Of a DNA stretch of 64,000 nt, positions 3,334 through 61,120 are shown in pieces. The notes beneath the pieces were generated by a model. That model had not been told where the DNA came from, ran no database searches, and saw nothing but the letters and a program-made list of their open reading frames with translations. Source of the DNA: Henricia sp. BOLD:AAB3569 (lineage: Eukaryota > Echinodermata > Asteroidea > Spinulosida > Echinasteridae); assembly GCA_037783545.1 (NCBI GenBank), contig JBBELK010000992.1, positions 744,001-808,000 on the forward strand, written 5' to 3'. Made by a program: the position numbers and the translations under genes. How positions within the stretch are numbered: position 1 is the stretch's first letter; each line of letters opens with the position of its first letter.

Positions 3334-4146
3334 TTTGCCTTAGTGCCTAGCATGCAGGAGGTTGTGGGTTTCAGTCCTGCCCAAGCAAGCTTTTATAATA
3401 GTGTTTCGGGATGCCATGAGTACTACATGTAGTAAAGCTACGCCAGGCATGTGTCAAAACAAGCCCTAATTAACATTGGTTCTCCCCAATGCAAGCCAAA
3501 TCACCTTCCCTCATCATATTCTCAAAAATATTTAATAAATCATCTGGATATAAACCATTTGTTTGCTGCAAAATTTATAAAATTCTTTTCATTCACCGAC
3601 ATACATGTAGTTTACGGTATGTATTGCATAATGGCGAAATGATACCCAAACACTCGCTGGTTCATCCCAAGATGAAATACTCAAAGATAACATGTTTCAG
3701 CTTTGTTAATGCATTTTGACAATTTACAATGTTTAGTCAAATGCGAGCTCATTGCCTGTCAATTTAAAAAAAATAAAAAGTGACATTTTGAGTGAAACAC
3801 TTACTACATGTACGTGTACATTGTGCAATGTACATACATCTATCTGTTTTTAATTATCTGGTTTGCAAAATGCCTGCATAAAAATTCCTTAAAGCCATTG
3901 TTATAAGTGGATTCAGAGCTTGATTTGATATAATTGAAAGATCAGTTTGAAGTTGATCCATATTTTGTCAAATCTGTTGTACTGGGAGATGTGCACTGTG
4001 AAGATTCTACACCTTGTCAAATTCTCCTTTATTAATTTTGCACCTTTAGACATCTCTCCAAGACAAAAGTGGCTGCAGTATTTACCGTACTCCCCTCACT
4101 ACCGGTACATACATTTCTAAGAAAGCTCTATGCCTGGTACAGATCT

Positions 4147-4240
4147 GGGTCTTTCTATAAATTAGGGGTCCAAAAGTGTGACATTTGGTGTCCCCCGTTA
4201 CACCAAAGACATTGTTAACATAGTGTAACGTCCGAAACAT
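4147..4240 (+). mobile_element. One end of a GGGT-type element
   Basis: The sequence starts GGGTCTTTCTATAAATTAGG and continues with GTGACATTTGGTGTCCCCCG, both matching the left part of the complete element at 24752-24985. It runs into a copy of the TGTAACGTCCGAAACA word at 4224. I could not find the matching right end, so the element is probably truncated or diverged. Confidence 0.45.
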
Positions 4241-5532
4241 AGGGTTTAAATTATAAAAATTATAAGCCAATGTACTTTTCCCAATAATTTTCACATAACT
4301 GTTTTGTATTACCCATTGTACACATGCAGCAGGTCTGATAAAAAAACACGTCAAAAATTTGCATAAATAATCTTTGAACCATGCTATTAACATTAATTGC
4401 TAAAGCAATTGGCAAAACCCGAGTTCAATATCACAACTGTAAGTTATGTAACGGTTTTTACTCAAATGAAAAAATGTTGTTTCATTCATGAATGTTTCAC
4501 ATGTTTAGATTTAGAATTAAGCTCAGACCTTTACATTTCTCATAAATTCAATTATTCTTCTTGACAAAACTACTAGTTTAAAGTGTGTTTTCATTTTTTG
4601 CCCTCTTAATTGGTTGACACATTTGGGCTATGTTAAAAAATCCCAGAGCCTTATACAAATCTAGTCAAACATTTGGAGCTTTTCCTCAAGGCACTATAAC
4701 CATGCTGGTTTTCAAGCTTCTTTAAATTGTTGCAATTCTACAAATTGACTGGACTCCCCCAGAGACATTCAACCAAACAGCCATAACGTACGTACGTGTT
4801 TCAGCTTAAGCTATAGCTATTAAGACAGTCTCTAAAGACACTTGTGGAAATCGTAAATCATCTCCCCAACTCAAAACAAGTTCTAGTTTCCTTTAGGGAA
4901 ATGTCACAAGTTAGCACTTCATTCTTGGCCTAAAGGCAATTCCACGAAATTTGTACATAATCTTAAATTGTGGGATTAATTTTTTGAGTAGAAAATGGTT
5001 TTTGATGACAGCATATGTACCGGGTATCAAGCTTCTCCAAAAGCTTTTTTGTTATTGAGTCTTAACAAATACACTACAATTCACTTGGGAAATGTTTCCA
5101 ATTCCATGTGGACATAGACCAACTGTACTGCAAATAAGTGTAAAGTATAATGTATTGATTTTTCAATAAAGTTTGGAAGTACTTTTCACATAAGACACAG
5201 CACATAAAGCATATACCGGTATACATGTACATGTAACACAGAAATACAGTAAGGCACTTTATTTCAGTTGTCTTTTTTTGAGGAAATATCAACTTCACAA
5301 ACAATGGCAATTGGCCGCATTGTTCAAAAGTTTGTTTTGGTGTATTGGCATAGGAATACACGGACAACTTGTAAGCAAAAATGACTTTTTTGTCTAGTTT
5401 TCGTACCAAATAATGGTGCCTGTGATATACTACAAGGCGTCGCTGCAATTGTCTTGTGAAGTTTGAATCCCCTTTTCAGTGGGTCATAAATTATTGTCCT
5501 TTGTATAACAGTGATGTACAAGTTACACTTTA

Positions 5533-29049: not shown

Positions 29050-29188
29050 TAAGGTTGATTGTCTTATTCAGACACCGAATTTCAGTTGCAACCACTGCGA
29101 AGGTTTTGGCTCATTAAAAAGCACATCGGGCAAAGCGCGGAAACCTCACACATGAAGCAAAACACATACGTACATGTACATACCATCA

Positions 29189-29443
29189 CGAGCCAATTTC
29201 ATTGCACTGCTAATATAAAAGCACAACAATTTGCTTATAGCACAGTATTTGTTTGCTTTATTTTGCAAAAATGGATTGCCAGCCAAAATCGTAAGTGACA
29301 TGTATTGAAAGGTATTCTCATACTCTTTTGCTTAGAACACGTAAGGTTGGCATATAATTTTGCCTTGTAATCCATTTTATAAAGCAAATCAATTATGTGC
29401 TCAGCAAATTTGTTTGCTTATAGCAGTGCCATGAAATTGGCCC
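29189..29443. mobile_element. GGGGCCAATTTCATGG element in duplication unit 1
   Basis: It begins GAGCCAATTTCATTGCACTG and ends AGTGCCATGAAATTGGCCC. It sits at the same place in duplication unit 1 as 31429-31650 in unit 2, so the insertion predates the duplication. Confidence 0.7.
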
Positions 29444-31428
29444 TACATGTACATGTAGGTCTGGGTACACATGTATAAATGTACGTGACTATTCAGCACT
29501 AAAAATGGAGCACTGGGCCTATACTGTAGATGTACATGTACATCTGGGGCGGCTTGGGGCCACGTTTACATCTGGCATTCATACTCTGATAAGAAATATC
29601 TTGACTGGAATCATTGCTGTGGATATTTGAAACCAAGTTTCTTGTGATTGAGTTTTACGAACCCCCTTCGTTGAAATATTTGATTACAATTTTGAGACAT
29701 TGCGAATCCTTAATGCAAATTTTGCCATTTCACTTTATTTCAAAAGCAGCGTTTTCATGTAATGCAGTTTACATCACATGAACAAACTTTTTTTAGAAAG
29801 GCATGTTGTCACACTATTTGTAACCTTTTTTGGGCCTAATTTATCCCTTCAGAACAACTTAAACTTATTTATTTTATCTTGAGACCAGACAAAGGTATTT
29901 TCTGGAAAATATGGTCTGTGTTGCCAAAATGCCCCCTTTACCCTGGAAAGACCCATTTCCTTTCACATGCACACTTATAGTATCCACTTCACTACTAGAT
30001 ACTAATTTTTTGTTATGTGGTGCACACGCCAGGTGTGAAGTACAGAATTAATACCGTGTTCACCCAGGGAGAGATTGGCATAAAGCAACCAGACTGCTTG
30101 TTGCTAGGCAGTGTTATCAATGTACACCACGTACACGTGTAGCACCAACAGCATAGTACGGTACATGAATGGGAACTTTCTAAACTCCACCTCCATTTAA
30201 AAGTGAAGAATTTGGGGCGCCAGCCATATGCAAATGTTAGACGCAAAAGGCCAATTCACTTCCATTCACTTTGTGCTAAAAATAGCAGCATGTGGATGTA
30301 GTACTTCACTTCTATGTACATACTTGCGTTAGCTCTTACAGGGACATATTTTGGGAAATTGGCATACGCTCATTATCCATGGAGTACTTTAATGCCCGTA
30401 ACTAGGAAGCACTTGTTAGTTTCAGTTTGTGTCAAGTGGTATGTGCTTTGGTCACATGGCACGTACAAGTGCCCTACACTTGTACACTTTACTGTTGTGG
30501 TATTGGGATGTTATCCACAGGCAAACATTATCGCAGAGTAGGGTGCTGACGTACAGTACCGGTAGGCCACTAAAGTTACATTAGAGTGATTATTTTATAC
30601 ATGTACAGTTTTTCCACAATTTTATTAGGTTACTGGATTTTTTTCTTTGCAATAGACCCCACATCTACTTTAAATGAGTCGGTTCCCAGAAAGTTCAGTA
30701 TGCATTCATATTACATGTAGCTCACAGAGAAATGAAATTTTAATATGTACATACGTATGCATATTCTTGATCAGAACAGAAGTTGAATAAAGTGAACTTG
30801 TGGATAACAATTATATAAGGCACTGATCGACAAATCACGTTGGAATCACTTTTAAGGACTTCCTGGAGTTCTAGGTCCAAGAAAACCTTTTTGAATCGGA
30901 GAAATATTTTTTGGCTTTCTATCTGAGTGAACCTGTATGGAAAGAGCTGACCTCTGGATCTGCGTGTCCCCCAAACAGCCCTAAAGGTGTGACACTAGTT
31001 CAGGGAGGCACTTCGAGCAGAGTGGTGAACCCTGCCTCAGTGTACCGGTACCTTGCCAAAAGATGGTCATACTACATGTACATGTATGTACGCTGTATAC
31101 CATGTAACTGACCAATAAATGTAACATCTCTCAGCCTGCTTGATTTTTCGGTCAGATAATTTGCATTTCTTTCTTTTTGTTTTGGCCATAATCCAAAAGT
31201 TGTGCATTTATATTACTTTCAAAACAAAAATGTATTATTACATTTATGTTACCTCCATGGTTACATGTACTTGCCAAACAGGTATGGACACTTTGCTAAA
31301 AGGTTGATTGGCTTATTCAGACACCGAATTTCAGTTGCAACCACTGCGAAGGTTTTGGCTCATTAAAAAGGCACATCGGGCAAAGCGCGGAAACCTCACA
31401 CATGAAGCAAAACACATACATACCATCA

Positions 31429-31650
31429 GGGGCCAATTTCATTGTACTGCTAAGCACAACAATTTGCTTAGCACAGGATTTGTTTGCTTTATTTTGCAAA
31501 CATGGATTGCCAACCAAAATCGTAAGTGACATATATTGACAGGTATTCTCATACTCTTGCTTAGAACTCAAGTTGGCATATAATTTTGGCTTGTAATCCA
31601 TTTTATAAAGCAAATCAATTCTGTGCTAAGCAGTGCCATGAAATTGGCCC
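31429..31650. mobile_element. GGGGCCAATTTCATGG element in duplication unit 2
   Basis: It begins GGGGCCAATTTCATTGTACT and ends AGTGCCATGAAATTGGCCC. It is the counterpart of 29189-29443, shortened by small deletions. Confidence 0.7.
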
Positions 31651-32145
31651 TATAGGTACAGGTCTGGGTACTTCAGCACTAAAAACGTAGATGTACATCT
31701 GGGGCGGCTTGGGGCAAAGTTTACTTCTGGCATTTATACTCTGATAAGAAGATATCTTGACTGGAATCATTGCTGTGGACATTTGAAACCAAGTTTCTTG
31801 TGATTGAGTTTTACGAACCCCCTTTGTTGAATTATTTGATAAAAATTTGAGACATTGCAGATCCTTAATGTAAATTTTGCCATTTCACTTTATTTCAAAA
31901 GCAGCGTTTTCATGTACATGTAATGCAGTTTACATCACATGAACAAAATGTACATTTACATCCCCATTTTGTAAAATAGCCTTTTGCGTGTTTCACATGA
32001 ATAGCGTCTGGTGCACTGACGTATTTGAGTCTTTGCACGGTACAGGGAGCATTTTGGCAACACAGACCATATTTTTCATAAAATACCTTTTGTCTGGTCT
32101 CAAAATAAACGAAATAAGTTTCCGTTGTTCTGGAGAGATAACTTA

Positions 32146-32796
32146 AGGCGTGTTCCCTTTGGACTTCTTTTTCCGCGCCCTCGCGGGAACTTTCCGCGAC
32201 TCCCTGTAAACATTCCTTCCTGTAAATCTCCCGTGCGTTCCCACTTACCATATATTTTACACGACGCGAGCGGAAAATTTAGCTACTCGGCTGGCCATAT
32301 GTGGTCAATTGAGGGCGTGGTTTGCATAACCTTTGACCTAACAGGATGTTCGACATGCCATGCGATACACATATTGGCGCAAAATTATTAATTTCGAACA
32401 ACTTCGATTAAACTTGCCATTATATTTGCAAAGAAAAGAGCATGAAAAAACACGTGCGTACGTTCATACAGGGCCAGTAACCAGAATTTGTTCGCGCAAT
32501 GTGTGGTGGGATTGCACGATGCAGGAAGTGACGTCATCCATTTGGCATTTTACACAGCGGCAGCGATAGTTCTACAGGGCGGCGCTGTTCCCATTGGACT
32601 TTTCGAGGGCCCTGTAAAACTCCCGCGGTTGAGCGGAAAGTTTCTGCGGCCTCTCTCGCCCTGTACGTTTTACATCGTGGTCGCGGTAACTTTACAGGGA
32701 CGCTAATTCTCCGTGCGTCCCCATTGGACTAAATTTTGTTACTCTCCCGCACAACCACGGGAGTTTAACCAAAAATAGTCCAATGGGAACACCACT
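32146..32796. mobile_element. TTA-flanked TIR element, relative of 2870-3297
   Basis: TTA at 32143-32145 and 32797-32799 flanks ends AGGCGTGTTCCCTTTGGACT and, inverted, AGTGGTGTTCCCATTGGACT. It is about 651 bp and runs in the opposite orientation to the copy at 2870. The right arm of the enclosing element (near 34.2 kb, inverted) reads through the site as ATAAATTAGGCCC, which gives an empty-site control and confirms the TTA duplication. Confidence 0.75.
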
Positions 32797-32955
32797 TTAG
32801 GCCCAAAAAGGGTTACAAATAGTGTGACAAAATGCCTTTGTAAAAACCCTGTGTATAAATTTTCAATATACATGTACTGTACGCTCCTAACGTGGACGAC
32901 CTAATTTGTAAAATTAACACAAGCATTACAAGTGTCCGTCCCATTTACAAGCGTA

Positions 32956-33338
32956 TGTGACCCGCTCTGCAAAAAAAGGGTATTAAGTCGCGCTGGCTAG
33001 TATTCTTTTTGCGACCATAAGAAGAAATCTGTGGCATTTCTACGCTCATTAAAATACCAAAACACAAAAGAAATTCCAGGGGGAACGCAGACATTCCAGG
33101 GGGAACGCAGACATTCCAGGGGGAACGCAGACATTCCAGGGGGAACGCAGACATTCCAGGGGGAACGCAGACATTCCAGGGGGAACGCAGACATTCCAGG
33201 GGGTATCTGGGCACCGCCAGGAATTTCCATTGTTTTGGTATTTTATTGAGCGTGGATTTGCCGCGGATTTCTTTTTATGGTCGTAAAAAGAATACTAGCC
33301 AGCGCGACTTAATACCCTTTTTTGCAGAGCGGGTCACA
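32956..33338. mobile_element. TA-flanked TIR element carrying a minisatellite
   Basis: TA at 32954-32955 and 33339-33340 flanks inverted ends TGTGACCCGCTCTGC / GCAGAGCGGGTCACA. The similarity continues inward about 100 bp (GGTATTAAGTCGCGCTGGCT; GCGACCATAAGAAGAAATC). The centre is a 20-bp tandem array. A single related end (TGTAGCCCGCTCTGCAAAAA) occurs at about 55206. Confidence 0.8.
33073..33203. repeat. 20-bp minisatellite, 6.5 copies
   Basis: The unit ATTCCAGGGGGAACGCAGAC is repeated six times without change (33073-33192), followed by a partial copy. It forms the centre of the TIR element 32956-33338. The open frames it creates on both strands are products of the repeat, not genes. Confidence 0.95.
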
Positions 33339-33341
33339 TAT

Positions 33342-34128
33342 TAGCCTTGTCCAAGGCTATGAAATTGTGTGAATCCGTGAAGAATTTGCCTGTATGCTAT
33401 GCAGCGAAAGTGCGCCATCGCGCTGTGAATTGTAGCCATGCAACTGCAAAATAGTCTGGTTACCAAAATATCTTGGTCTGAATCCTGACTTCTCGGGCGA
33501 GGCTGTATCATAGCCCTGTTCTTTCTGTATTCGATTTGTTATGTGTTTCTTTATATCTGCGTTCGAAATCCGACGCAGTTACTTATGCGAAACCCGAGTG
33601 CTTATAAATATTCATATCTTACATAACATCCAATCAGAGCTCACTACTCGGGTCAAATGTGCGTGTGACCGGTTTGCAAGCATAAACGTTTGTTCGTCGT
33701 ATATGTGTAGTGTTGTTGTTGTTGAAGACCAGAAGATATCCCTCACATATTTTCTGTAAAGGTATGACGTATTTGTGAACTTACCAACTGGGTATAGGCT
33801 ATACGTACGGAAAATCTGCTATTTTTCAAACGGCACCGTATTGTTCTGTCAAAACAACCGTTAACCAATGAGCTTTCGCGTCTCGGTGCTCTGTTCGAAA
33901 CATTTGCATAAAGAGTCCCCGCCCATTAAACACATCGATTACAGAAAGAACAAGGCTATGATACAGCCTCGCCCGAGAAGTCAGGATTCAGACCAAGATA
34001 TTCTGGTAACCAGACTATTTTGCAGTTGGCTACAATTCACCGCGCGATGGCGCACTTTCGCTGCATAGCATACAGGCAAATTCTTCACGGATTCACACAA
34101 TTTCATACATAGCCTTGGACAAGGCTAT
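33342..34128. mobile_element. Foldback-like element with arms of about 190 bp
   Basis: The left arm (33342-33530) and right arm (33938-34128) are inverted copies. Shared words are TAGCCTTGTCCAAGGCTA, GTGAATCCGTGAAGAATTTG, GAAAGTGCGCCATCGCGC and TTCTCGGGCGAGGCTGTATC. Each end is itself a short palindrome (AGCCTTGTCCAAGGCT). The middle has no recognised gene. It abuts the element ending at 33338. Confidence 0.8.
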
Positions 34129-34645
34129 ATAGTCACATATTGGAAATTTGTACACAGGGTTTTTAGAACTTGTTCATGTTGTCACACTATTTGTAACCTT
34201 TTTTGGGCCTAATTTATCCCTTCAGAACAACTTAAACTTATTTATAGACCAGACAAAGGTATTTTCTGGAAAATATGGTCTGTGTTGCCAAAATGCCCCC
34301 TTTACCCTGGAAAGACCCATTTCCTTTCACATGCACACTTATAGTATCCACTTCACTACTAGATACTAATTTTTTGTTATGTGGTGCACACGCCAGGTGT
34401 GAAGTACAGAATTAATACCGTGTTCACCCAGGGAGAGATTGGCATAAAGCAACCAGACTGCTTGTTGCTAGGCAGTGGTATAAATGTACACCACGTACAC
34501 GTGTAGCACCAACAGCATAGTACGGTACATGAATGGGAACTTTCTAAACTCCACCTCCATTTAAAAGTGAAGAATTTGGGGCGCCAGCCATATGCAAATG
34601 TTAGACGCAAAAGGCCAGATTATTACACTGAACTGCTTACCTTGT

Positions 34646-34792
34646 TCCATAGTTGACTGAACAATTGCATTACTTTCGCGAGAATGGAATCACCCAAACA
34701 AACACAAAAACACCCCCTCTAGCCCATGTGGTCTAGCCCTATGACCCCAGGTCATGCCATGTGGCCCAACAATCATCCTCACTTTTCGTTCG
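34646..34792 (+). repeat. DIRS left inverted terminal repeat
   Basis: From TCCATAGTTGACTGAACAAT to about CATCCTCACTTTTCG. It matches 41211-41360 inverted with only a few differences (for example GCATTACTTTCG against GCATTCCTTTCG). Outside it, 34618-34645 is the left extension that is complementary to the first half of the internal region. Confidence 0.9.
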
Positions 34793-35533
34793 GCTTCACC
34801 CTGGCCAGACGTACTTCTGTAGTGCTCCGGTGTTCAGCCAATTTCGAGATCGGATTTCTGATAGTCTTCCGAAGAGAGTCTCCCCCAGATTCTACCCACG
34901 TTCCTTCTCCTACCAGTTCTCCTGGAAAACGAAGCGACTCTGGGACGAATTTCACCTCTATATCCTTTTAGTGCTCGTGCGAATTTCAGTTTTAGACTCG
35001 CACGTAGTAGCGGCCTGACCCGACGCCATTTTTGTTAAATAGCATTGGGAACCGGCCTCTGTGTACTTGGGTGTAAGAATACAGTAATGTTTTTGTCGAT
35101 GTGCTTACGCCACTGCATTTCCTTAACCCCTTGCTCTTGTTAGTTCTCGGGAGCGGACAGTATCGAACAGTTCGACACTCGGTTAAGATTTTTTTTTTGC
35201 AGCTTCAGCGGCGTGCATATCCACCTGGTACCGCCCCCGCCTCGGCGCGTTTGCAATTCACTACTGCTCGCGCCTTTTTCCCCGGTCCCTTACCCTGTCT
35301 TCGCGCTCCCGGGCCGTGTTCCGTTAGCCCAGTGCTCCTGTGCTGCTCTGGGCTTACCGTCGCGCAGTTCCACCATCGAACGTTTTTCTCTGTGGTCTAG
35401 CGTAAGCCGCATACACTATGAGCGACTCACGGTGGAGATTGGGCCCAGACCACCGTTGTTAACGGTGGTGTGTGCCCATTTTCCATTGTTAACTGCTCGT
35501 GGTGATAGAGCCTCCGTCGCGAGCGCGCTAGGT

Positions 35534-36007
35534 GAGGGACAAGGAAAGTTTGGGGGTTTCTGATGGGGACGCTGCCCAAGGGGCTCCAGAACCGTCTCTA
35601 ACCCTAACAGGGCTCCGGTCCTCGTGCCCGCGGTACTTGCTGGTACCGCTACGGGCACGAAAGGTGAGACCCCAGCGGGATTGGTCAGGCCGATTCAAGC
35701 AGGGGACTCGCGGTGTACAACCTGCGAGGAGGACGGAGGTGATCTGTCCTCTTCTGCTCACGCTACACCTGAGGGACAAGGGAAGTTTGGGGGTTTCTGA
35801 TGGGGACGCTGCCCAAGGGGCTCCAGAACCGTCTCTAACCCTAACAGGGCTCCGGTCCTCGTGCCCGCGGTACTTGCTGGTACCGCTACGGGCACGAAAG
35901 GTGAGACCCCAGCGGGATTGGTCAGGCCGATTCAAGCAGGGGACTCGCGGTGTACAACCTGCGAGGAGGACGGAGGTGATCTGTCCTCTTCTGCTCACGC
36001 TACACCT
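35534..36007. repeat. Two-copy tandem duplication, 237 bp, in DIRS 5' region
   Basis: 35534-35770 and 35771-36007 are almost identical (GAGGGACAAGG ... CACGCTACACCT). The period of 237 is a multiple of three, so the open frame from 35532 to 36215 continues through both copies. The minus strand is open as well, so openness alone is not evidence of a protein. It lies where a gag-like gene would be expected. Confidence 0.9.
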
Positions 36008-36194
36008 CCGGCCGTCGACCAGCAAAGCGACCCCCAGGGGACCGCTGTCGCTGGTCGAGGGAGCTCAGCTCGGTGTTTCCCTAGGGGTTTCACCGACGCA
36101 GAGTTTTCTGGGCCAGCAAGACGTGACCGCTCCGGGTTCTGGGCTAGGCTCGGACCCTCTACGCGGTTACGCACCCCGGCGTGCGGCCCGCCTT

Positions 36195-37250
36195 CTAGCT
36201 CCATGTTGGAGCTAGCGTGGCGGGCGGGGTCCGTCTTCCGAGACAAACCCAGGGAAGCTTGCCTTTCCACAGCACGCCGGGCAGCTGGCTCGCGGTGCAG
36301 ACTTCCTCGGTGGACTCACCGACAATAAAGGTCCCGGTGGTTTTCCTTGCAGCCGAGTATTCGGCTGTGGGACCTCCCACGCACCGCGCAAACGGCTGGC
36401 TCGCGGTGCAGACTTCCTCGGTGGTCTCACCGACAGTAAAGTCCCGGTGGTTCCCCTTGCAGCCGAGTACTCGGCCGTGGGACCCCACGCACCGCGCATG
36501 GGAGGCGGAGATGCCAATGTGTATTGGCCCCTCCACCCCCCAGAGCGTGGCCGCTCGGGTTCCGGGCTAGGCTCGGACCTCCCCTGCGGTTACGCGCCTC
36601 CGATGTGCAGCCCGCCTGTCAGCTCCAACGGAACTGACGTGGCGGGCGGGGTCAGCCCTCACGGGCAATTCCCAGGGAAGCTTGCCTTTCCTCAGCACAC
36701 CGGGGAAGGAACAGAGCGTGTCCGCTCCGGTCCGACGTGCGGCACGCCTGCTAGCTCCATGACGGAGCTGGCTTGGCGTGCGGGGCCAGCCCCTCGTGGG
36801 CAACCCCCGGGAAAGCTTGCTTTTCCTAAGCACACCCGGAATGTTAACGTGCGGCCCACATGCTAGCTCCACCAGAGGTGGCATGGCGGGCGGGGCCAGT
36901 CCTTCGGGACAACCCCCAAGGAGGTTTACCTTTCTACAGCACGCAGGACTACTCTGAGAGCGTGACCGCTCCTCCGACGTGCAGCCGCCTGCTAGCTCCA
37001 CATCGGAGCTAGCATGCCAGGCGGGGACAGTCCCTCGTGGGCTATTCCTAGAAAAGCTTGCCTTTTCTCAGCACGCCGGGTAAAGTTGTGTCCCCGGTGC
37101 TAGTTGGCGCCTCTATGGACACTGCGGTTACGCGCTGCCGACGTGCGTCCCACCTGCTAGCTCCAACGGAGCTGGCGTGGTGGGCGGGGCCAGTGGCTCA
37201 GGCCGTTCCCCTTGGGCTTGCCTTCCCACAGCACGCCGGAAAATCCGGCC
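36195..37250 (+). repeat. Array of six GCTAGCTCCA-GGAGCTAGC hairpin repeats
   Basis: Short palindromes of the form GCTAGCTCCA-n-GGAGCTAGC start at about 36195, 36618, 36750, 36862, 36991 and 37156. Each is followed by GGCGGGCGGGG, and most by AAGCTTGCCTTT...CAGCACGCCGGG. A second repeat (GGCTCGCGGTGCAGACTTCC ... CCCACGCACC) occurs at 36290, 36398 and, diverged, at 37270. Spacing is irregular. The array occupies the presumed gag region of the DIRS element. Confidence 0.75.
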
Positions 37251-38717
37251 TCCCTACGCACGACCCGTGCGGGAGCCGGCTGGTTTGTGGTGCAGACTTC
37301 CACGGTGCCTGCACCGACGGTAAAGTTCCTATAGTGGTCCGCCCCCCCCCTTTAGCCGGTGGTACGGCTGTCGGGGGCGCCACCCCACGCACCATTCAGG
37401 GTAGGCGGGGATGCCCAGTGCGGCATCCGTTACCACCCATGACCAGACCTGGTGGACCAGGCGGCACTGCCCTGGCGTTCGCCGCGGCAGTTGCCGTAAC
37501 TGCAACACAGCTAACAAGTCCGGTGCCTGTGCACTGGGCCTCTGATCTTGTCGTCCAGGAGGAGTCCTGGAACGCAGAGGGAGGCGGAGGGCTGTCCACT
37601 TCAGGGCTTATATCGGTCTGATCGGCCGCACGCAGCCCCTGGACAAACCCTAGTGTGGACCCCGCAGGCGCCTCAGGTGGGCATTCCAGCTTTGGTCCGC
37701 ACGCGGGTCTCTCCTCGCGAGCGGATGTCCGCCCGCCGAGACCTCCCCTGCACACTCGATAAGCACTATGCCGTGTTCCCTCGCGAGGTAATGCCCCTTC
37801 TATCGGAGGGGCCCGCTCGAACCTCGCCCGGGGTTCCACCACCTCAGGAACCCATGTACCATCCCAGGTTGCTACACGGGTTCAGCCAGGGCGGCGGGTT
37901 TCCCAGATTTCGGGACCTGTTGTCCCTTAGTCAATCTGGCCCGACCGCCCGTACGGCTGAGGAAATGGAGAGCATTCCAGCCGCGGTGCTAGGCTGTTGT
38001 GGGGCATTCCTTATGCCCACGAAATGCTGCCTCCTTTCCTACGAAGACCTCCTCAGGAGGACTTTGTCCCTTTCCTACGGAAGCCTCCCATGGATGTCGA
38101 TATCGCTAAGCGACCACCAGATGCTGGTCGCCCACGATCACAGACAATCCTTGAGTATCGTGGCCTCGTCAGATGTTCGGACGGGCCCACACTCCTGGCG
38201 GCCTCCCCGGGCCTGCCAGTCGGGGGCATTCGAGACCTTTCTCAGGCGCATTCCAGGTCAGACGGAATAACGCCGGCGTGCCCCTCCATTCAGTTCCTAG
38301 TTCTGACCTCGTAACTGGGGTCAACCCCTGACACGAACCGTTCTCTTCGAGGACTTGTTTGCGTCACGGTTCTTGGACTGGCGGATGAGGCCGAAAGCGA
38401 GGATAGTCAGTTGCTTTATTAGCTACCCGCCCAGTGGACTAGGACATTAGAGCGTGCACCACCGTTCGGTGGATGCTTCAAGTCCGTCCAAGCGGCGTAG
38501 GTAGAGCGGTGCTGCCTCCACCCCAATCCGATCACACCCTATCCTATAGCTAAGACACTGCTATGGACAGGTCCGTCCGACTCCGCCTTCCAAAGTCAAG
38601 AGACCGCGGAAGGCGAAGCAGGGCTGTGACGGTTGGTCCTCGGACCGCCGTTTGTACACTCCTTTGGGACGGTCGCTGAGGTCTCCGCGCCCGGGAGGGG
38701 CCCCCATTCTCCCGGGC

Positions 38718-39152
38718 CCATGGGTTATGGTGGTCAGCAACCGGGGGTATCGCCTTGTGTTTGGCGACTTCTTTCCCCTCAGTGACTTTGTCCCTAAAGT
38801 CATCACCGCTCCCTCCAGAGGGGAACAGAAGAGCGACCCACTCCGAATGTCTACCACTGAATACGTTCCCCGGGACGGGGGTTCAGAATGGGGACATTGA
38901 CCAGCGCTCTTCGGTGCCCGCTCTAGGGCACGTAGGCATCCTTGACCCCAGGGATGCCTACTAGCACGTCCCTATTATGGCCTACGACCAGCGGTGACTC
39001 GGGCTTAACACCTGGGTCAGTCGTTCGTCTGACGTGCCTCCCCTTTGGCCTTTCCGTATCACCCGGTTTTCACGGTGATCACCAGGGTGGACGGAGCATA
39101 CTTAGGCCGCGGGAGCCAGTTAAGGTTGGGATCTCTGGTCTATCTCAATAAT
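38718..39152 (+). pseudogene. DIRS reverse transcriptase remnant
   Basis: The order of motifs fits a DIRS reverse transcriptase. PWVMVVSNRGYRLVF is at about 38720. DPRDAY-stop-HVPIMAYDQR-stop at 38944 corresponds to the catalytic aspartate motif usually read as DLKDAYFHVPI. TCLPFGLSVSPGFH is at 39032 (usual ALPFGLSTAPRVF), and VYLNN is at 39141-39152 in place of YLDD. The motifs lie in three different frames, and both aspartates of the last motif are Asn (AAT AAT). The region between the first two motifs is shorter than expected. It encoded RNA-templated DNA synthesis for the element and is now inactive. Confidence 0.8.
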
Positions 39153-39329
39153 TCCTCATGGCTCCCTGCCAGGTCCTGGTATGCCTGGGTGCCCGACCAC
39201 ATCTGAGTTAGTCGGGGGACCCATCGGCGGAACGGAAATGGATCCCTTAGGGCCCTCGCTCACCGCTTTTGGCGGAGCTAGACGGCCCTGTCCGCCCCTG
39301 GCTGTGCCTGCTGGATCTTATGGCAAGTA

Positions 39330-39866
39330 CATGCATACGTTTCTCGCCATATGTCCGCTTTTACAGGGATGACTTCTGTTGAAGCGTTACAGCAGGCTCC
39401 CAGACTCCCAATCAGTCCCAACGACGGTCCTGATAGGGACGAGCTCGCCTCGTGGAACCCCCATCCAACCTGACGCGGGGACTGTCTCCCCCGCACGCAT
39501 CCATTCGATCGGACGCGTCTGGTCAGGCTGACTGTTAGGCGCACGAGTATCCGGGACCTGCTCCCAGGATTAAGCTTGCTCATACTCCAACCTCCTCGAA
39601 CTACGGGCGGTCGGGCAGCCCCCGCTCCTGAAGTTCGAAGCGACGGTGGCTGGAGGCAACATCCTTGTTCGATCGGACATTCCCAGTGGTGATGTTACAG
39701 TTAGCAGGGTGGGATTTACTTCCTCGTCCCTGTGTCTCAACACCTTCCAAGCAGGTGCAGAGACAGGATCACCTCTCTGTCCGCAGTCCATATACCGGGA
39801 ACGGTTTATCTGCCCGCCGACGGCCTCTCTTGAGGCAGGGCGTCTTGCGCAGAATGGACCATGAAC
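39330..39866 (+). pseudogene. DIRS connection/RNase H remnant
   Basis: A diverged HMRPLQ-like site (about 39350) is followed by GGNILVRSDI (39652-39681, usually LVRTDN) and by SLSAVHIPGTVYLPADGLS, then a stop (39768-39826). The last matches the characteristic HIPG..N..AD.LSR close of the DIRS RNase H domain. Frame changes and stops separate the pieces. Downstream, 39870-41035 should hold the remaining domains, including the tyrosine recombinase, but I recognise no HxxR/Y motif there. Confidence 0.7.
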
Positions 39867-41039
39867 CTGGCTATAGCCCGGGAGATCTCCACGGGGATCG
39901 ATCTCCTTGCCTCCGCGATCAGTCGCCAGCCCCCAGGGCATTGCTCCAGGGTCCCCGACCCAGGAGAATATACAGTCAACACTCTCTCGGACCGAAGGAC
40001 GACTCCCCCTTTTGGGAGTCCCTCCCCCATGGTCCCGATCCGCTCATTTCTCTGAAGCGCTGAGGAGGACTGCTTCCTATCCTGCCTGTAGAGAGTATGA
40101 TCCTGACTGTACGGCCACTTCCCGGCGACGTTGCCGGGAGAAGGGCCTCCCTGGGGGGCCTTCGTCACCTTCGCCACCGGGGGAATTAAGTGTCTACCCT
40201 CGCCGATTACGCTGACGCCTGGGTCCCTTCTATCGGTGGTGTGACGGAAGAGGTTGCTCCCCCACTAGAACGCTGTAGCTCTAGTTGCGGGATCCCTCTC
40301 TGAACACCTTGTCTCGGGCCTTAAGTCATCTACATGGCTCTTTCGGCCCTTTATTCTAGCGGTTCATAGAGGGTTCTGAGGTAGGCTCGAACATCTACGG
40401 CGATGATTCTCGCTTCTGCCTCTTGGAAGGAATGTCTGTTTGAGGCCGCCTAGCCTGTACTCTCGTTCCGGGAAACGTTCTCACGAGGGCCACATCCTGT
40501 TGGTGTTGCCTGGACTTTCCGAAGGCTAGGCCTCCCTGTTCTCTGTTCAAGACGCTGTTGTCTGGAACAGGTCTGCATCCTTCCCGCACTCGGCTATCCT
40601 CCTTGGAATTAACTATTCCTCTGGAACGGGGGATCGCCTTGGTGCCCGGTCAGAGTCCCGGTCAGTCCGCTGCTGTCCGGGACCCGACCAACCTTCTGTT
40701 TGGTTCACGATCTATGGATATGCACCGGATTCTCTGGCGGTGCTGTAGAAGGCTCTAACTCCTTCTCTTCAGGTTTCTCGGGCATTATGCCTGCCCGGAA
40801 GGAGTTTTCCATTTCCATGCTGCTAAACAGAATCCAGTCAGTCAGAATCATAGTATCCCTAGAGTCCTCCGGGAGGTACTCCTCCTCTGGGCGGAGTCTC
40901 CCCTTAGCTCGTACTCTACAAGGGCTTTTGAGTCTGACCTGTCTGCGCATTGCCATGTCCTAGCCCTGACGTGCCCGGAGCCCTTGATTGTTGACATCTT
41001 GCTCCGACCTCCTACTAAGTGTGCTAGTCTGGAAGTTAA

Positions 41040-41160
41040 ATGCAATTGTTCAGTCAACTATGGAACAAGGTAAGCAGTTCAGTGTAATAATCTGTTACGA
41101 AACATATTCTGTTTCTTAGATTATTTATACTGAAGCCTGCTTACCTGTCCATAGTTGACT
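41040..41160 (+). repeat. DIRS internal complementary region (121 bp)
   Basis: 41040 to about 41094 (ATGCAATTGTTCAGTCAACT ... TAATAATCTG) is the reverse complement of the left end. 41094-41160 (GTTACGAAACATATTCTG ... CATAGTTGACT) is the reverse complement of the right end. The halves meet exactly as the two ends would in a circle with one CA at the junction. In the established model this region templates restoration of the element ends and formation of a circular DNA intermediate. Confidence 0.95.
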
Positions 41161-41210
41161 CCCACGCCGTACCCGCCCCACAGCAAGATGTGTACGTCTT
41201 TGTTGTCGGG

Positions 41211-41360
41211 CCAAACGTAAAGTGAGGATGATTGTTGGGCCACATGGCATGACTTGGGGTCATAGGGCTAGACCACATGGGCTAGAGGGGGTGTTTTTGT
41301 GTTTGTTTTGGTGATTCCATTCTCGCGAAAGGAATGCAATTGTTCAGTCAACTATGGACA
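41211..41360 (+). repeat. DIRS right inverted terminal repeat
   Basis: From CCAAACGTAAAGTGAGGATG to GTTCAGTCAACTATGGACA. It is the inverted counterpart of 34646-34792. It is followed by a right extension (41361-41413, CAGGCTTCAGTATAAATAAT ... TTTCGTAACA) that the left end lacks and that matches the second half of the internal complementary region. Confidence 0.92.
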
Positions 41361-42660
41361 GGTAAGCAGGCTTCAGTATAAATAATCTAAGAAACAGAAT
41401 ATGTTTCGTAACAATTCACTTCCATTCACTTTGTGCTAAAAATAGCAGCATATATGGTGGATGTAGTACTTCACTTCTATGTACATACTTGCGTTAGCTC
41501 TTACAGGGACATATTTGGGAAATTGGCATACGCTCATTATCCATGGAGTACTTTAATGCCCGTAACTAGGAAGCACTTGTTAGTTTCAGTTTGTGTCAAG
41601 TGGTATGTGCTTTGGTCACATGGCACGTACAAGTGCCCTACACTTGTACACTTTACTGTTGTGGTATTGGGATGTTATCCACAGGCAAACATTATCGCAG
41701 AGTAGGGTACTGACGTACATACAGTACCGGTAGGCCACTAAAGTTACATTAGAGTGATTCTTTTATACATGTGTACAGTACTTCCACAATTTTATTAGGT
41801 TACTGGATTTTTTTTCTTTGCAATAGACCCCACATCTACTTTAAATGAGTCGTTTCTTAGAAAGTTCAGTATGCATTCATATTACACATGTACCGGTACA
41901 TGTACATGTAGCTCACAGAGAAATGACATTTTAATGTACACGTACAGTGTATGCATATTCTTGATCAGAACAGAAGTTGAATAAAGTGAACTTGTGGATA
42001 ACAATTATATAAGGCACTGATCGACAAATTACACATGTACGTTGGAATTACTTTTAAGGACTTCCTGGAGTTATAGGTCCAAGAAAACCTTTTTGCATCA
42101 AGTGATTTCCACAGTAATGAATGTTTTGATTTTTTTTCTGAGAATGGGAGAATCTTGAAGTTACATGTAAGAGCTCTCAGAAAAAATTTTTGGCTTTCTA
42201 TCTGATTGAACCTGTACATGGAATGAGCTGACCTCTGGATCTGCGCGTCCCCAAAACAGCCCTAAAGGTGTGACACTAGTTCAGGGAGGCACTTCGAACA
42301 GTGGTAAACCCTGCCCCAGTGTACCGGTATCTTGCCAAAAGGTGGTCATACATGTACATGTACACCATGTAACTGACCAATATAAATGTAACATCTCTCA
42401 GCCTGCTTGATTTTTTTTGGTCAGATAATTTGCATTTCTTTCTTTTTGTTTTGGCCATAATGCAAAAGTTGTGTATTAATTATATTACTTTCAAAACATC
42501 TATATAAATGTACCGGTATTATTAAATTTATGCAAGTCTGGCCTAACCTGAAAGAGTTGACATCTTTCTGTGGCGCAATCCACAAAAAAATGCATTAGAC
42601 ATGTACTCTTGGCATTGCTGTTTCCCCTTTTGGGAAGGTAATTTATCTGTAGCATAATAT

Positions 42661-51286: not shown

Positions 51287-51439
51287 TATAGACCGTATCG
51301 GATAGCCGCCATTTCGTGGGGCAGTTTCTTTGTTCCTTGAGGACATGCATGGTTGCACATAATTGTGCTTCCATTGTTGAACGGTTTAAGTAACAAAAGG
51401 TGCCCCACGAAATGGGGCCTATTCGATATACGGTCTATA
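51287..51439. mobile_element. Short TIR element, about 153 bp
   Basis: The ends TATAGACCGTATCGGATAG and, inverted, TATAGACCGTATATCGAATA continue into GCCATTTCGTGGGG / CCCCACGAAATGG. It lies 10 bp beyond the foldback arm. It is the smallest complete inverted-repeat element found here and has no coding content. Confidence 0.7.
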
Positions 51440-53610: not shown

Positions 53611-53696
53611 GGATTAAAAGTAGGTTTGGCCAATCTTAAACATATGTTTAAAACCAGCTAGGGGTGTTTAAGATTGGCCAAACCTAATTTTAATCC
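53611..53696. repeat. Inverted repeat (hairpin of about 35-bp arms)
   Basis: GGATTAAAAGTAGGTTTGGC pairs with GCCAAACCTAATTTTAATCC, and CAATCTTAAACA with TGTTTAAGATTGG. A related but longer-spaced structure is at 23166-23283 (GTGGGTTTGACTAGTC ... AAACCCACTTTTACTCC). The downstream 53.70-53.83 kb also matches 23.5-23.6 kb in inverted orientation. Confidence 0.65.
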
Positions 53697-54214
53697 CAAT
53701 CATAAATACCTTTTCGTGTAAATCGGTAAAACTCACCAAAATTAGCTCGTCGTTTTGCCATGTTTGCATTCACTTTCCTACAGTGTCAACACCGCGTTCA
53801 TACAACTGCTAGCTGTGCGTCATGTTGTTTTTGTTCCATTTTTTTCAATGGGCGCTAAGATTTTCATACCATATCATGTCATATTTTACTCATTAGCATT
53901 CTGAAATATCGCTCCCTCAATTTGTATGTTTTCAGGGATATTGTCAAAAAGTTGCATTAGGCAGTGCAATGATTACACCAACCTTTTTGCTAACACAACC
54001 AATTTGGTGATTGCAAATTTGCTGTTTTCTCCTAATGGATAGTATTTTGTGGAGGTATTTTATATAATTGTAAGATTAGAGCGAAATCCATTTTCTGAAA
54101 AAAATCTGAACACACTCCTTTAAACATTTTACACAGTTTGAGGCAGTACTGTATCTGCATTATAGACACCTTGCTGTTGGCGTTTTTAGTGCCAATATGG
54201 CACAGTACATGCAC

Positions 54215-54965
54215 GGGTACGGTGGAGGACGGTATAGTGTTCGGTCAGACATACACGGTGGGAGGGGGTGTGGTGGGTTTTTTGTTTGATCGGAAACGCG
54301 GATGGACGACGGTATAGTGTTCGTTCAGACATACACGGTGGGCTGTGTGGTGGGCTGTTTGTTTGATCGGACACGCGGGTGGAGGACGGTATAGTGTTCG
54401 GTCAGACATACACGGTGGGAGGCGGTGTGGTGGGGTGTTTCTTTGATCGGACATGCGGGTGGAGGAAGGTATAGTGTTCGGTCGGACATACACGGTGGGA
54501 GGAGGTGTGGTGGGTTTTTTGTTTGATCAGACACGCGAGTGGAGGACAGTATAGTGTTCGTTCAGACATACATGTACACGGTGGGAGGGGTTGTGGTTGG
54601 GTGTTAATTGTTTGATCGGACACGCGGGTGAAGGAAGGTATAGTGTTCGATCAGACATACACGGTGGGAGGGGGTGTGGTTGGCTTTTTGTTTGATCGGA
54701 CACGCGGGTGGATGAAGGTATAGTGTTCGGTCAGACATACACACTGGGAGGGGGTGTGGTGGGTTTTTTGTTTGATCGGACACGCGGGTGGGGGAATGTA
54801 CAGTATAGTGCTCAGTCAGACATACACGGGGGAGGGGGTGTGGTGGGATGTTTGTTTGATCGGACACGAGGGTGGAAGATAGTGTTTGGTCAGATATATA
54901 CACGGTGGGAGGGGTGTGGTGGGGTGTTTGTTTGATCGGACACGCGGGTGGAGGAAGGTATAGAA
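54215..54965. repeat. Minisatellite, about 81-bp unit, 9-10 copies
   Basis: Units start with GTGGAGGACGGTATAGTGTT-like sequence at about 54219, 54302, 54381, 54462, 54541, 54629, 54711, 54790, 54873 and 54949. Each contains GGTCAGACATACACGGTGGG and TTTGATCGGACACGCGGG. Unit length varies from 76 to 88 bp. Long open frames on both strands come from the near-multiple-of-three period and are not genes. Confidence 0.93.
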
Positions 54966-55513: not shown

Positions 55514-57804
55514 AAATCTCGTAGTGACAGCGCCGTGCGCGCGCACTTTTATGCATAATGTTATGCAGAGCGCACTGTCGCCTGCTTACTACCGGTATAT
55601 GCATGTATGCACGATGTCTAGTTCCCTGTGTCCTCACATCGTGGCATGACTGCACGGGGAAACCGCGGGCTGGGAAAATCGTAATGCCCTCTGCAATTTA
55701 GATATTTTGTTGGAAATACAACAATTGTATAGGACATTGCAAATGATAGGTACTGTTCCACAGATAATCGAGGCCATAGTTGAACCTATTTGCCAGTTCA
55801 AAAACCCGCCGGTTCGGGAAAATAATCTTTCAAGCTGTACATTTTGTTGGAATGAAAACAAAAACCGGGTGAAATTAAAACACTGCTTGTTGCCGTAGCT
55901 TGATCGTGTGTTGAACAGTTTATTGGCCTAAATCTCAATGGCTCAGAAATCTTAGGAAATAATCTGGAATATTTGACAGATACACATTTCATTTTACCAT
56001 CCCATAACGGAGAAAATCGCTCACACCATGGAGCCATAAATAGCTCCATGCTTGACGAAATATGGAAGAAAGAAACTCGCAAAAAGCAAATACTGCACAC
56101 TGGGCGACTCGTGCGGGCACAAAAACATAGGAAACATTTTTTCGTGACATAAATTCCCCTTCCCTCCCAGTGGGTTTTCAAAATGTCAACTTAAAACCAG
56201 CAATAGCACTGTCATAAGATAAATCCTTAGGCCTATGCTAGGGACTTGGAAATCCGTGACATCATCAGTCGTGCAGTCGCGACACTATTACTTCAACTTG
56301 GTCAAATCCGCAACCGAAGTCATGCAAGCTTGATAGACTGCTGCGTGAAATTGCACTTTAGTTTCTGTCATTTAATCTGCCAGGCTGATTTATTTTTGGT
56401 ACAGGCCTATTGGGGCTGGTTTTCTTTGTATTTGTGCCAAATATCACGCAAATCCACCTGTGCAGTGGTGAGATTTTCCGCCCCAAAATATCACCAAAAT
56501 CACATCACAATTTTTAAAGTTGCTGTCTATTCATTTTTATTGACGATTCCGCACGTATATTTGGCACATTTTAACAAGCATAAAACAGGAACTGCTTGAT
56601 TAATTTTTGCAACAATATTGTTTTTGATAGCTGTCGCAACTTGTCCGTTGTGTGAAAATGGTTTTAACTCAAAATAGAAATGTTTAATTTTTATTCCAAG
56701 TCGCTACCCAGCCATTGACTTAGTGTACGGAGTCTCAACTGCCAAACTATGGTATTTTTTTCCGTTGGGCTCTGATCACTGCATCGGGCCGCCGGTATAT
56801 AATTTGTTATTTTTTTGAAAATCCTTTTTGTTTTTAGTCGGGCTTAGACAAAATTCAAAACTCGTGCGGCCTAGATGGATTTTTCCCTAAGTATTTTTTC
56901 CCCGGGGTATTTTTCAGACCGACCGAAGCCTAACCGCCAACGTCGGCCAGGTTCTGTTACTTCGCCACCCGTCCGTTGCAAAGAGTCTTCGCCTACCCTT
57001 GCAACCGCGCGAGCCACCCGGCGAAATCAACAACGCGTACCGGTCAAATCAACCACGCGTACCGGTCAAATCAACCACGACGCGTACAAAACAACAAGAA
57101 ACTTTCAATTCAACACGATATAAGCGCCGAACATACGGTGCATGTACCATAGCTATTTGCTCTTAAAGGTACACACCTGCCTACTGTTTACATGATTTAG
57201 TGATGTAGCAGCATTGACAATACTTTTTTGATGGTCGTTGCGAAAAAATTTCATCAAAATATCCCGTAATTTACTAAAGAAGTGCAAAGATAACGAAAAC
57301 GGTCAAAAGACGGGTTATACGCTTTACCAGCCGTTGCAACTACGCGAGAGCCTCACGACTTTGTCACAAACGATTCGCTCTTCTCCTGCTCAGGATATCT
57401 CCAATTTTCTGCTCACGATTTCACTGGACAGCCCGGACGACCGAATAGGAATTTCCGTTTTCTTTTGAGGAGTTGGCATCATGTTTTTTCTTCACGAACG
57501 TACGTGCACCGAATCAACACGCCCTTTCGTGTGTGTGTGCACTCAGGTTATTTGCCGTGTACCGCGCGGGGCAAGTTTCTACACTCCACGGTAGCCTGCC
57601 GTAGCACGCGCTCGCTCCCGTTCTCCGGACTCTCGAAACAAACAATTATGTTCGAATTTTCATACTTTAACTTTGTTTCATACCTGTATAAATAGTCTCT
57701 CTTTTGTGAATTACTTATAAATATTGGGGGGAAATCAGAGTTGAATTTGGTGCAGTAACAAACTTTTATACGGCTGGAAATGAAACTAACTCACAAGACC
57801 ACTT

Positions 57805-59919: not shown

Positions 59920-61120
<1,201 letters not shown>

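Follow-up and report, generated by a model that had tools for sequence, protein, structure and literature searches.

An integration mechanism has been proposed for DIRS-type retroelements, the experimental demonstration of which is, according to PMC5941688, still to come. In the model given for DIRS1-like elements, the 3-bp junction of a circle recombines with an identical genomic sequence, and the accompanying table comprises 28 such elements, including SkoDIRS1 and SkoDIRS2, with NTT at both ends in 23 of them (PMC3266345). The present analysis concerns an element located at positions 34618–41413 (6796 bp) of a 64,000-nucleotide stretch of the genome of the sea star Henricia sp. BOLD:AAB3569 (GCA_037783545.1, contig JBBELK010000992.1, positions 744,001 to 808,000), which is termed the window and on whose plus strand all features described below are given. 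The element is a non-autonomous DIRS derivative, of which the genome, 740 Mb in size, also contains sister copies, and it is very probable that its properties are best explained by mobilization in trans, by ends rebuilt on an internal complementary region (ICR), and by one-sided integration at a degenerate target.

Junctions of the element and its sister copies

The window contains a local duplication, and in one of its units the element splits a sequence that is contiguous at 30245–30261 in the other. At the left junction, the flank ...AAAAGGCCA is followed by the element start GATTATT (34618), and at the right junction, the element end ...TTTCGTAACA (41413) is followed by the flank ATTCACTT; the empty target site at 30245–30261 reads AAAAGGCCAATTCACTT. 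The left flank (34175–34617) is 97.6% identical to 29802–30253 over 452 alignment columns, and the right flank (41412–42099) is 91.3% identical to 30252–30897 over 689 columns. Joined to each other, the two flanks align with the empty site across the junction without a gap, so that the target has neither gained a duplicate nor lost a base. Self-comparison of the window places the empty unit 1 at 29051–31226 and unit 2, which is interrupted by a 2.2-kb piece (31948–34174) and the element, at 31300–42498. An earlier note on this DNA had described the two flanks as contiguous in the other unit, with coordinates for the element that are right to the base, and its claim of a clean insertion without target duplication holds as well. 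The note had also called the insertion younger than the duplication; given an element in one unit only, and ends that agree completely with the ICR, this is the simplest order; formally, unit 1 could instead have lost the insert, or an empty allele could have been the source of a conversion.

The outer ends of the element, which were located by the empty site and by the junctions of sister copies, have the anatomy of DIRS-type termini. The left terminus with the left inverted terminal repeat (ITR) occupies 34618–34794 and the right ITR 41210–41387; their conserved arms (34646–34794 and 41210–41358) are 149 nt long and 97% complementary. The left ITR ceases to match the right one at 41388, where a right extension of 26 nt (41388–41413) begins, which is present in the right terminus and in the ICR, has no counterpart on the left, and ends in a CA borne by the element itself (TAAGAAACAGAATATGTTTCGTAACA). 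The ICR (41039–41160) is the reverse complement of both outer ends, with 41039–41092 corresponding to the left end (54 nt) and 41093–41160 to the right end (68 nt), and shows 0 mismatches in 122 positions when compared with the joined ends. A single TG, equivalent to CA, lies at the join of its two parts. The termini of the element read GTAACA and GATTATTACAC, and the minus strand of the ICR spells the circle junction, GTAACA followed directly by GATTATT.

Sister copies were collected with a left-end query (at least 52 matches, counting partial ones; scoring covered 40 of 323 candidates), with a right-end query (at least 40 long matches that extend to the right end, plus short ITR or ICR matches; scoring covered 40 of 157 candidates), and with an exact 40-mer of the left tip, which occurs 54 times per strand, ICR copies included, and of which the first places were listed. 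The right ends read comprise all 40 from the right-end query, the window being one of these, together with others from the left-end and left-tip searches. Loci whose flanks were already counted (L023, L069, L086, L091, and L092) were left out, and no outer junction was readable in L075 (ICR only), L089, L095, L099, L100, L101, L109, and L110 (places guessed); L027 contributes its right junction only. Both outer junctions are available for 39 copies, namely the window element and 38 elsewhere, and a single junction for further copies. In 20 sister copies, among which L022 and L023 have common flanks, identity to the window element ranges from 88.0 to 98.7% over aligned parts covering 53–100%, and L029 and L030 are 99.6% identical to each other. 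The left flanks of L024 and L104, which are nearly identical and differ by 1 nt before the element (GGTCCT and GGTCACT), were both counted; they represent either one repeat targeted twice or a diverged duplication.

The two ends of the element behave differently across these copies. CA is found at the right end of the element in 54 of 55 distinct right junctions, and among 17 right ends reached through the left-tip pattern, and hence chosen blind to the right dinucleotide, 16 carry CA, the other being the diverged copy L073. The hexamer at the right end of 38 pairs is GTAACA in 37 cases and GTGACA in one. At the left junction, in contrast, 10 kinds of dinucleotide occur in 56 flanks (CA 21, TA 14, GA 7, CG 3, TG 3, AA 3, CT 2, AT 1, CC 1, and TT 1), and no left flank ends in GTAACA, either among the first 43 or among 13 distinct flanks added later. 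Where both junctions are known, the left dinucleotide is not CA in 25 of 39 copies, whereas the right one is CA in all 39. The statement in the note that both ends share CA is thus true of the window copy and of right ends in general; its suggestion that CA is the shared crossover dinucleotide, to be sought again in other copies, fails at the left junctions, which differ from copy to copy. A chance match at a single site was also considered for CA and is ruled out by the 55 right and 56 left junctions.

Further evidence comes from unoccupied relatives of the targets. The flanks of each pair, joined without CA, were compared with the window and with loci L001–L070, and a paralogous unoccupied sequence spanning the junction was found for 11 of the 39 pairs. 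The junction is gapless in nine of these, with the left dinucleotide CA in the window, L025, L026, and L037, AT in L013, TA in L015, GA in L017 and L098, and AA in L049. In the five non-CA empty sites, the dinucleotide of the target itself is present once and no CA is found there, indicating that the right CA belongs to the element and not to the target. L015 is inserted within a 50-bp tandem array, which supplies many internal empty sites, and the window contains unoccupied paralogs of several other targets, at 51287–51428 (L025), 53670–53836 (L017 and L021, with a 1-nt gap in the case of L021), 57599–57700 (L049), and 60313–60424 (L037).

These junctions bear on two explanations in which CA is shared by both ends. 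A 2-bp target-site duplication produced by a DDE-type enzyme, or a coincidence at one site, would account for the window copy taken alone, where CA on either side of the element is matched by a single CA in the empty site. However, the right CA is constant and lies within the ICR, the left dinucleotide is variable, and non-CA empty sites show no duplication, so that this reading has practically no likelihood and is rejected. The other is the published model in unchanged form, stated for DIRS1-like elements in PMC3266345, in which the circle recombines at an identical genomic core and leaves an equal core at both ends. This model fits the window copy and the excess of CA among targets (21/56), but the left dinucleotide is not CA at 35 of the 56 junctions; its strict form is refuted for this family by the five non-CA empty sites, a relaxed form in which a similar core is preferred survives, and as a whole we regard it as improbable.

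The constancy of the right CA despite differing left dinucleotides argues that the core of the circle is not derived from the left flank of the parent copy. The same follows from the agreement between ends and ICR: whichever variant, AAACAG or AAACAC, a terminus carries is also the one in the ICR of that copy, in 20 of 20 distinct copies, as templating predicts. Over these copies, ICR and termini differ at 19 of 2440 columns, and 12 of the 20 show no mismatch. Renewal of the ends from the ICR in each cycle would explain the constant right CA.

Target preference and the side of exchange

The flanks of the insertions (56 left and 55 right) define a target profile that, counted from the exchange point, is A-rich from −10 to −6, has a pyrimidine at −2 and A at both −1 and +1, and continues with T from +2 to +4. 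The target matches the circle more often than expected by chance at −1 (A in 45/56, p = 5e-15) and at −2 (C in 27/56, p = 6e-6), and no such agreement is seen in these flanks from −3 to −6 or at +1 and +2; at +5 they disagree, the target having A in 6 of 55. This partial match indicates that circle and target are preferentially alike at CA, identity not being required. The flanks also show a dyad centered on −3, with a score reached by 0 of 1000 random flank sets for the 38 pairs; in bootstraps of all flanks, the peak lies at −3 in 1391 of 2000 and within −3.5 to −2 in 1821 of 2000. By the aligned flanks, the target is a degenerate YA site whose dyad symmetry is centered about 3 bp to the left of the point of exchange.

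Given symmetric binding of the recombinase, the target spacer would be NNNNYA and the circle spacer GTAACA, with the exchange point at the right edge of the spacer; the left edge is never the one inherited (0/39 pairs). A comparison of inverted arms around the circle junction, with spacers of 0–10 nt, gave no clear winner (6/12 at both 0 and 6 nt), so the 6-bp spacer is based on the target dyad alone. All 39 paired junctions are of one type, a count of sequence outcomes rather than of strands, and under random strand inheritance the probability that 24 of 24 informative pairs fall one way is 6e-8. This one-sidedness suggests the exchange of one strand.

Two other routes lead to the same junctions. 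In a reciprocal recombination of both strands, a heteroduplex spacer that was always resolved in one direction by strand-directed repair would likewise leave the spacer of the circle at the right junction and that of the target at the left one. This requires repair to favor one and the same strand at both junctions in every insertion, against which the probability just given for 24 of 24 stands, and we know of no strand signal for such consistent resolution, although no search was made for one; this route is rather unlikely. Blunt joining with zero overlap after a cut that prefers YA, which involves no strand asymmetry, would give identical sequences, and YA could then reflect a preference of the enzyme rather than pairing with the CA of the circle. 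Tyrosine recombinases (YRs), however, cut with a stagger, and the dyad center lies approximately 3 bp from the exchange point, where a 6-bp stagger would put it, so that blunt joining is also unlikely, somewhat more so than repair of a heteroduplex.

A broader proposal can be advanced only tentatively, and its odds are less than even. DIRS-type retroelements in general may integrate by one-strand exchange, perhaps from a single-stranded circle folded into a hairpin in the manner of integron cassettes, with a loose match of the two spacer bases nearest to one exchange point and the other spacer bases free; copying of the strand would then leave bases of the circle to one side of the element and bases of the target to the other, and the ICR would erase the record in each cycle. 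In integron cassettes, recombination of attC with attI involves short homology beside one exchange point, a hairpin-forming single strand, and the exchange of one strand. These cassettes are bacterial and unrelated in sequence, and a single-stranded substrate of the present element is at most suggested by its predicted fold. As single-stranded DNA, the ICR is predicted to form a long hairpin (z −10 and −11), and the fold of the minus strand places the exchange point 1 bp inside a stem, beside an unpaired AAC; such a hairpin arises from the inverted repeats and is no proof of a single-stranded substrate. To go by the title of a 2020 study by Malicki, DIRS amplification reportedly proceeds through linear single-stranded cDNA.

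Coding content, relatives, and surroundings

No Pfam family was found in the element at E-values up to 1 in a six-frame search with stops read as X, and the gag, reverse transcriptase (RT)–RNase H–methyltransferase, and YR frames of DIRS1-like elements were accordingly not found in that search. A hidden coding body had been considered and was rejected, as five-frame and six-frame searches at this threshold returned 0 Pfam families. Because no protein domains were found, the element is classed as a non-autonomous DIRS derivative and not as a DIRS1-like retrotransposon; the designation "DIRS-like" in the earlier note is borne out by the ITRs and the ICR and needs this qualification.

A relic is nevertheless recognizable with tblastn, which aligns the pol frame of L112, a DIRS element with open frames elsewhere in this genome, with 39756–39986 (34% over 82 amino acids, E = 8.9e-9); this frameshifted segment is named RNase H by us. 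The pol frame of a second such element, L115, matches 39723–40070 (E = 1.5e-4), and both frames also match the sister copy L026, whereas neither matches one shuffled control; the YR frames of open-frame DIRS elements gave no tblastn match to the element. Relative to seven sister copies, the right half of the body has 124 indels, 25 of which are multiples of three (5/22 against L026 and 1/24 against L029). Part of the body, at the least, is therefore a decayed DIRS pol region, one that kept multiplying. Ten long frames from other copies were inspected, and RT was found only in L028, in a LINE-like frame of 499 amino acids (3597–5093 on the plus strand of L028, antisense to the element), whose best PDB matches are LINE-1 and R2 proteins and which also has a weak REC104 match below the cut-off (E = 0.031). 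This copy contains an extra insert, and its RT is probably that of a nested LINE. The genome is rich in YR elements: at least 141 matches to PF00589 were found, 134 without a stop inside the match, and many have open frames of 330–415 amino acids.

The body of the element has a GC content of 0.585, compared with 0.391 in the rest of the window, and its non-coding, GC-rich sequence contains a perfect internal tandem duplication of 237 bp (35533–36006) and, beyond it, several diverged GC-rich repeats. The 2.2-kb piece that also interrupts unit 2 includes a 387-bp near-palindrome (inverted repeat at 32954–33340) enclosing a tandem array of 6.8 copies of 20 bp (33069–33203), as well as inverted fragments of unit 1. 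Elsewhere in the window, self-comparison revealed a tandem array of approximately 80-bp units at 54220–54963.

Proposed mechanism and comparison with known systems

The element would most likely be mobilized in trans by the RT and YR of another DIRS element in the same genome. Its ends would be rebuilt on the ICR, and therefore each circle would carry GTAACA followed by GATTATT whatever dinucleotide flanked the parent copy. The presumed circular intermediate would be joined, between CA and GATT, to a target consisting of an A-rich stretch, NNNNYA, the exchange point, and (A)TTTT; the target bases remain once, on the left, and the GTAACA of the circle on the right, with none duplicated or lost. 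With a 6-bp spacer of which only the exchange at the right edge is inherited, this would amount to one-strand exchange.

Several observations weigh against parts of this scheme. The empty sites are paralogs rather than the identical loci before insertion, and a 1-nt gap is present at the junction in two of the 11 (L012 and L021). The right end of L073 reads CG, with CT in its ICR. To the right of the exchange point, T is common to target and circle at +3 (32/55) and +4 (36/55), and there is weak agreement at +6 and +7; we read this as the T-run of the right arm of the target, but it is agreement outside CA. Bootstraps of the 38 pairs give the −3 axis in only 930 of 2000, and an axis between +1.5 and +3.5 in 444. 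The pol frames of L112 and L115 find no match in sister copy L029, and no open-frame partner with identical termini was found, the six YR loci read of the at least 141 (L111–L116) having no significant match to these termini. The one-strand reading depends on the staggered cut of YRs, as blunt joining yields the same sequences. Lastly, in L112 the circle core and the right end are not alike (n = 1), and DIRS families may therefore vary in the side concerned.

The element shares with DIRS1-like elements its ITRs, the absence of target duplication (gapless in 9/11, with a 1-nt gap in two), the RNase H relic, a size near 6–7 kb, a two-part ICR at the 3′ end (54 + 68 nt here, 63–65 in SkoDIRS2), and a right extension (26 nt here, 27 in SkoDIRS2) (PMC3266345). 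It differs from them in that no RT, methyltransferase, or YR frame was found in it, in that it begins with GAT and ends with ACA, having the circle core CA and no NTT trinucleotide, and in that the target core need not be identical and circle bases are retained on the right. By our count of the table, start and end differ in 10 elements, the circle core being equal to the start in seven, equal to the end in one, and ambiguous in two; mostly, then, the side is opposite to that of the present family, with one annotated sequence per element (PMC3266345). Together with the right end of L112, this suggests that the side may be family-specific. The open-frame elements L111, L112, and L115/L116 resemble the element in right terminus and ICR layout; the pol frame of L115 lies upstream of its YR frame, and the right ends of L115 and L116 have GTAA before the core, as in the element. 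In contrast, their circle core is, by our reading of three families, ATT followed by CTAC (right end and core are both ATT in L115 and L116), and they show no significant match to the termini of the element. Strand-biased YR elements (SE) share with the mechanism proposed here mobility by a YR and a 6-bp spacer, and are reported to exchange one strand only, but they are bacterial DNA elements with a site-dependent spacer, whereas the present family is a retroelement with a constant one. Among titles and abstract openings, with subscription journals largely outside this coverage and absence thus unproven, no work on DIRS junction asymmetry and no paper using the phrase "non-autonomous DIRS" was found.

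Because one constant donor junction has been inserted many times into differing targets, for several of which paralogous empty sites are available, the sister copies constitute a natural experiment. For this family, an identical genomic core is unnecessary and a degenerate dyad target is defined, and the strict asymmetry of left and right is a constraint on any integration mechanism. A long non-coding DIRS derivative has multiplied, and the renewal of its ends by the ICR is visible in the junctions themselves.

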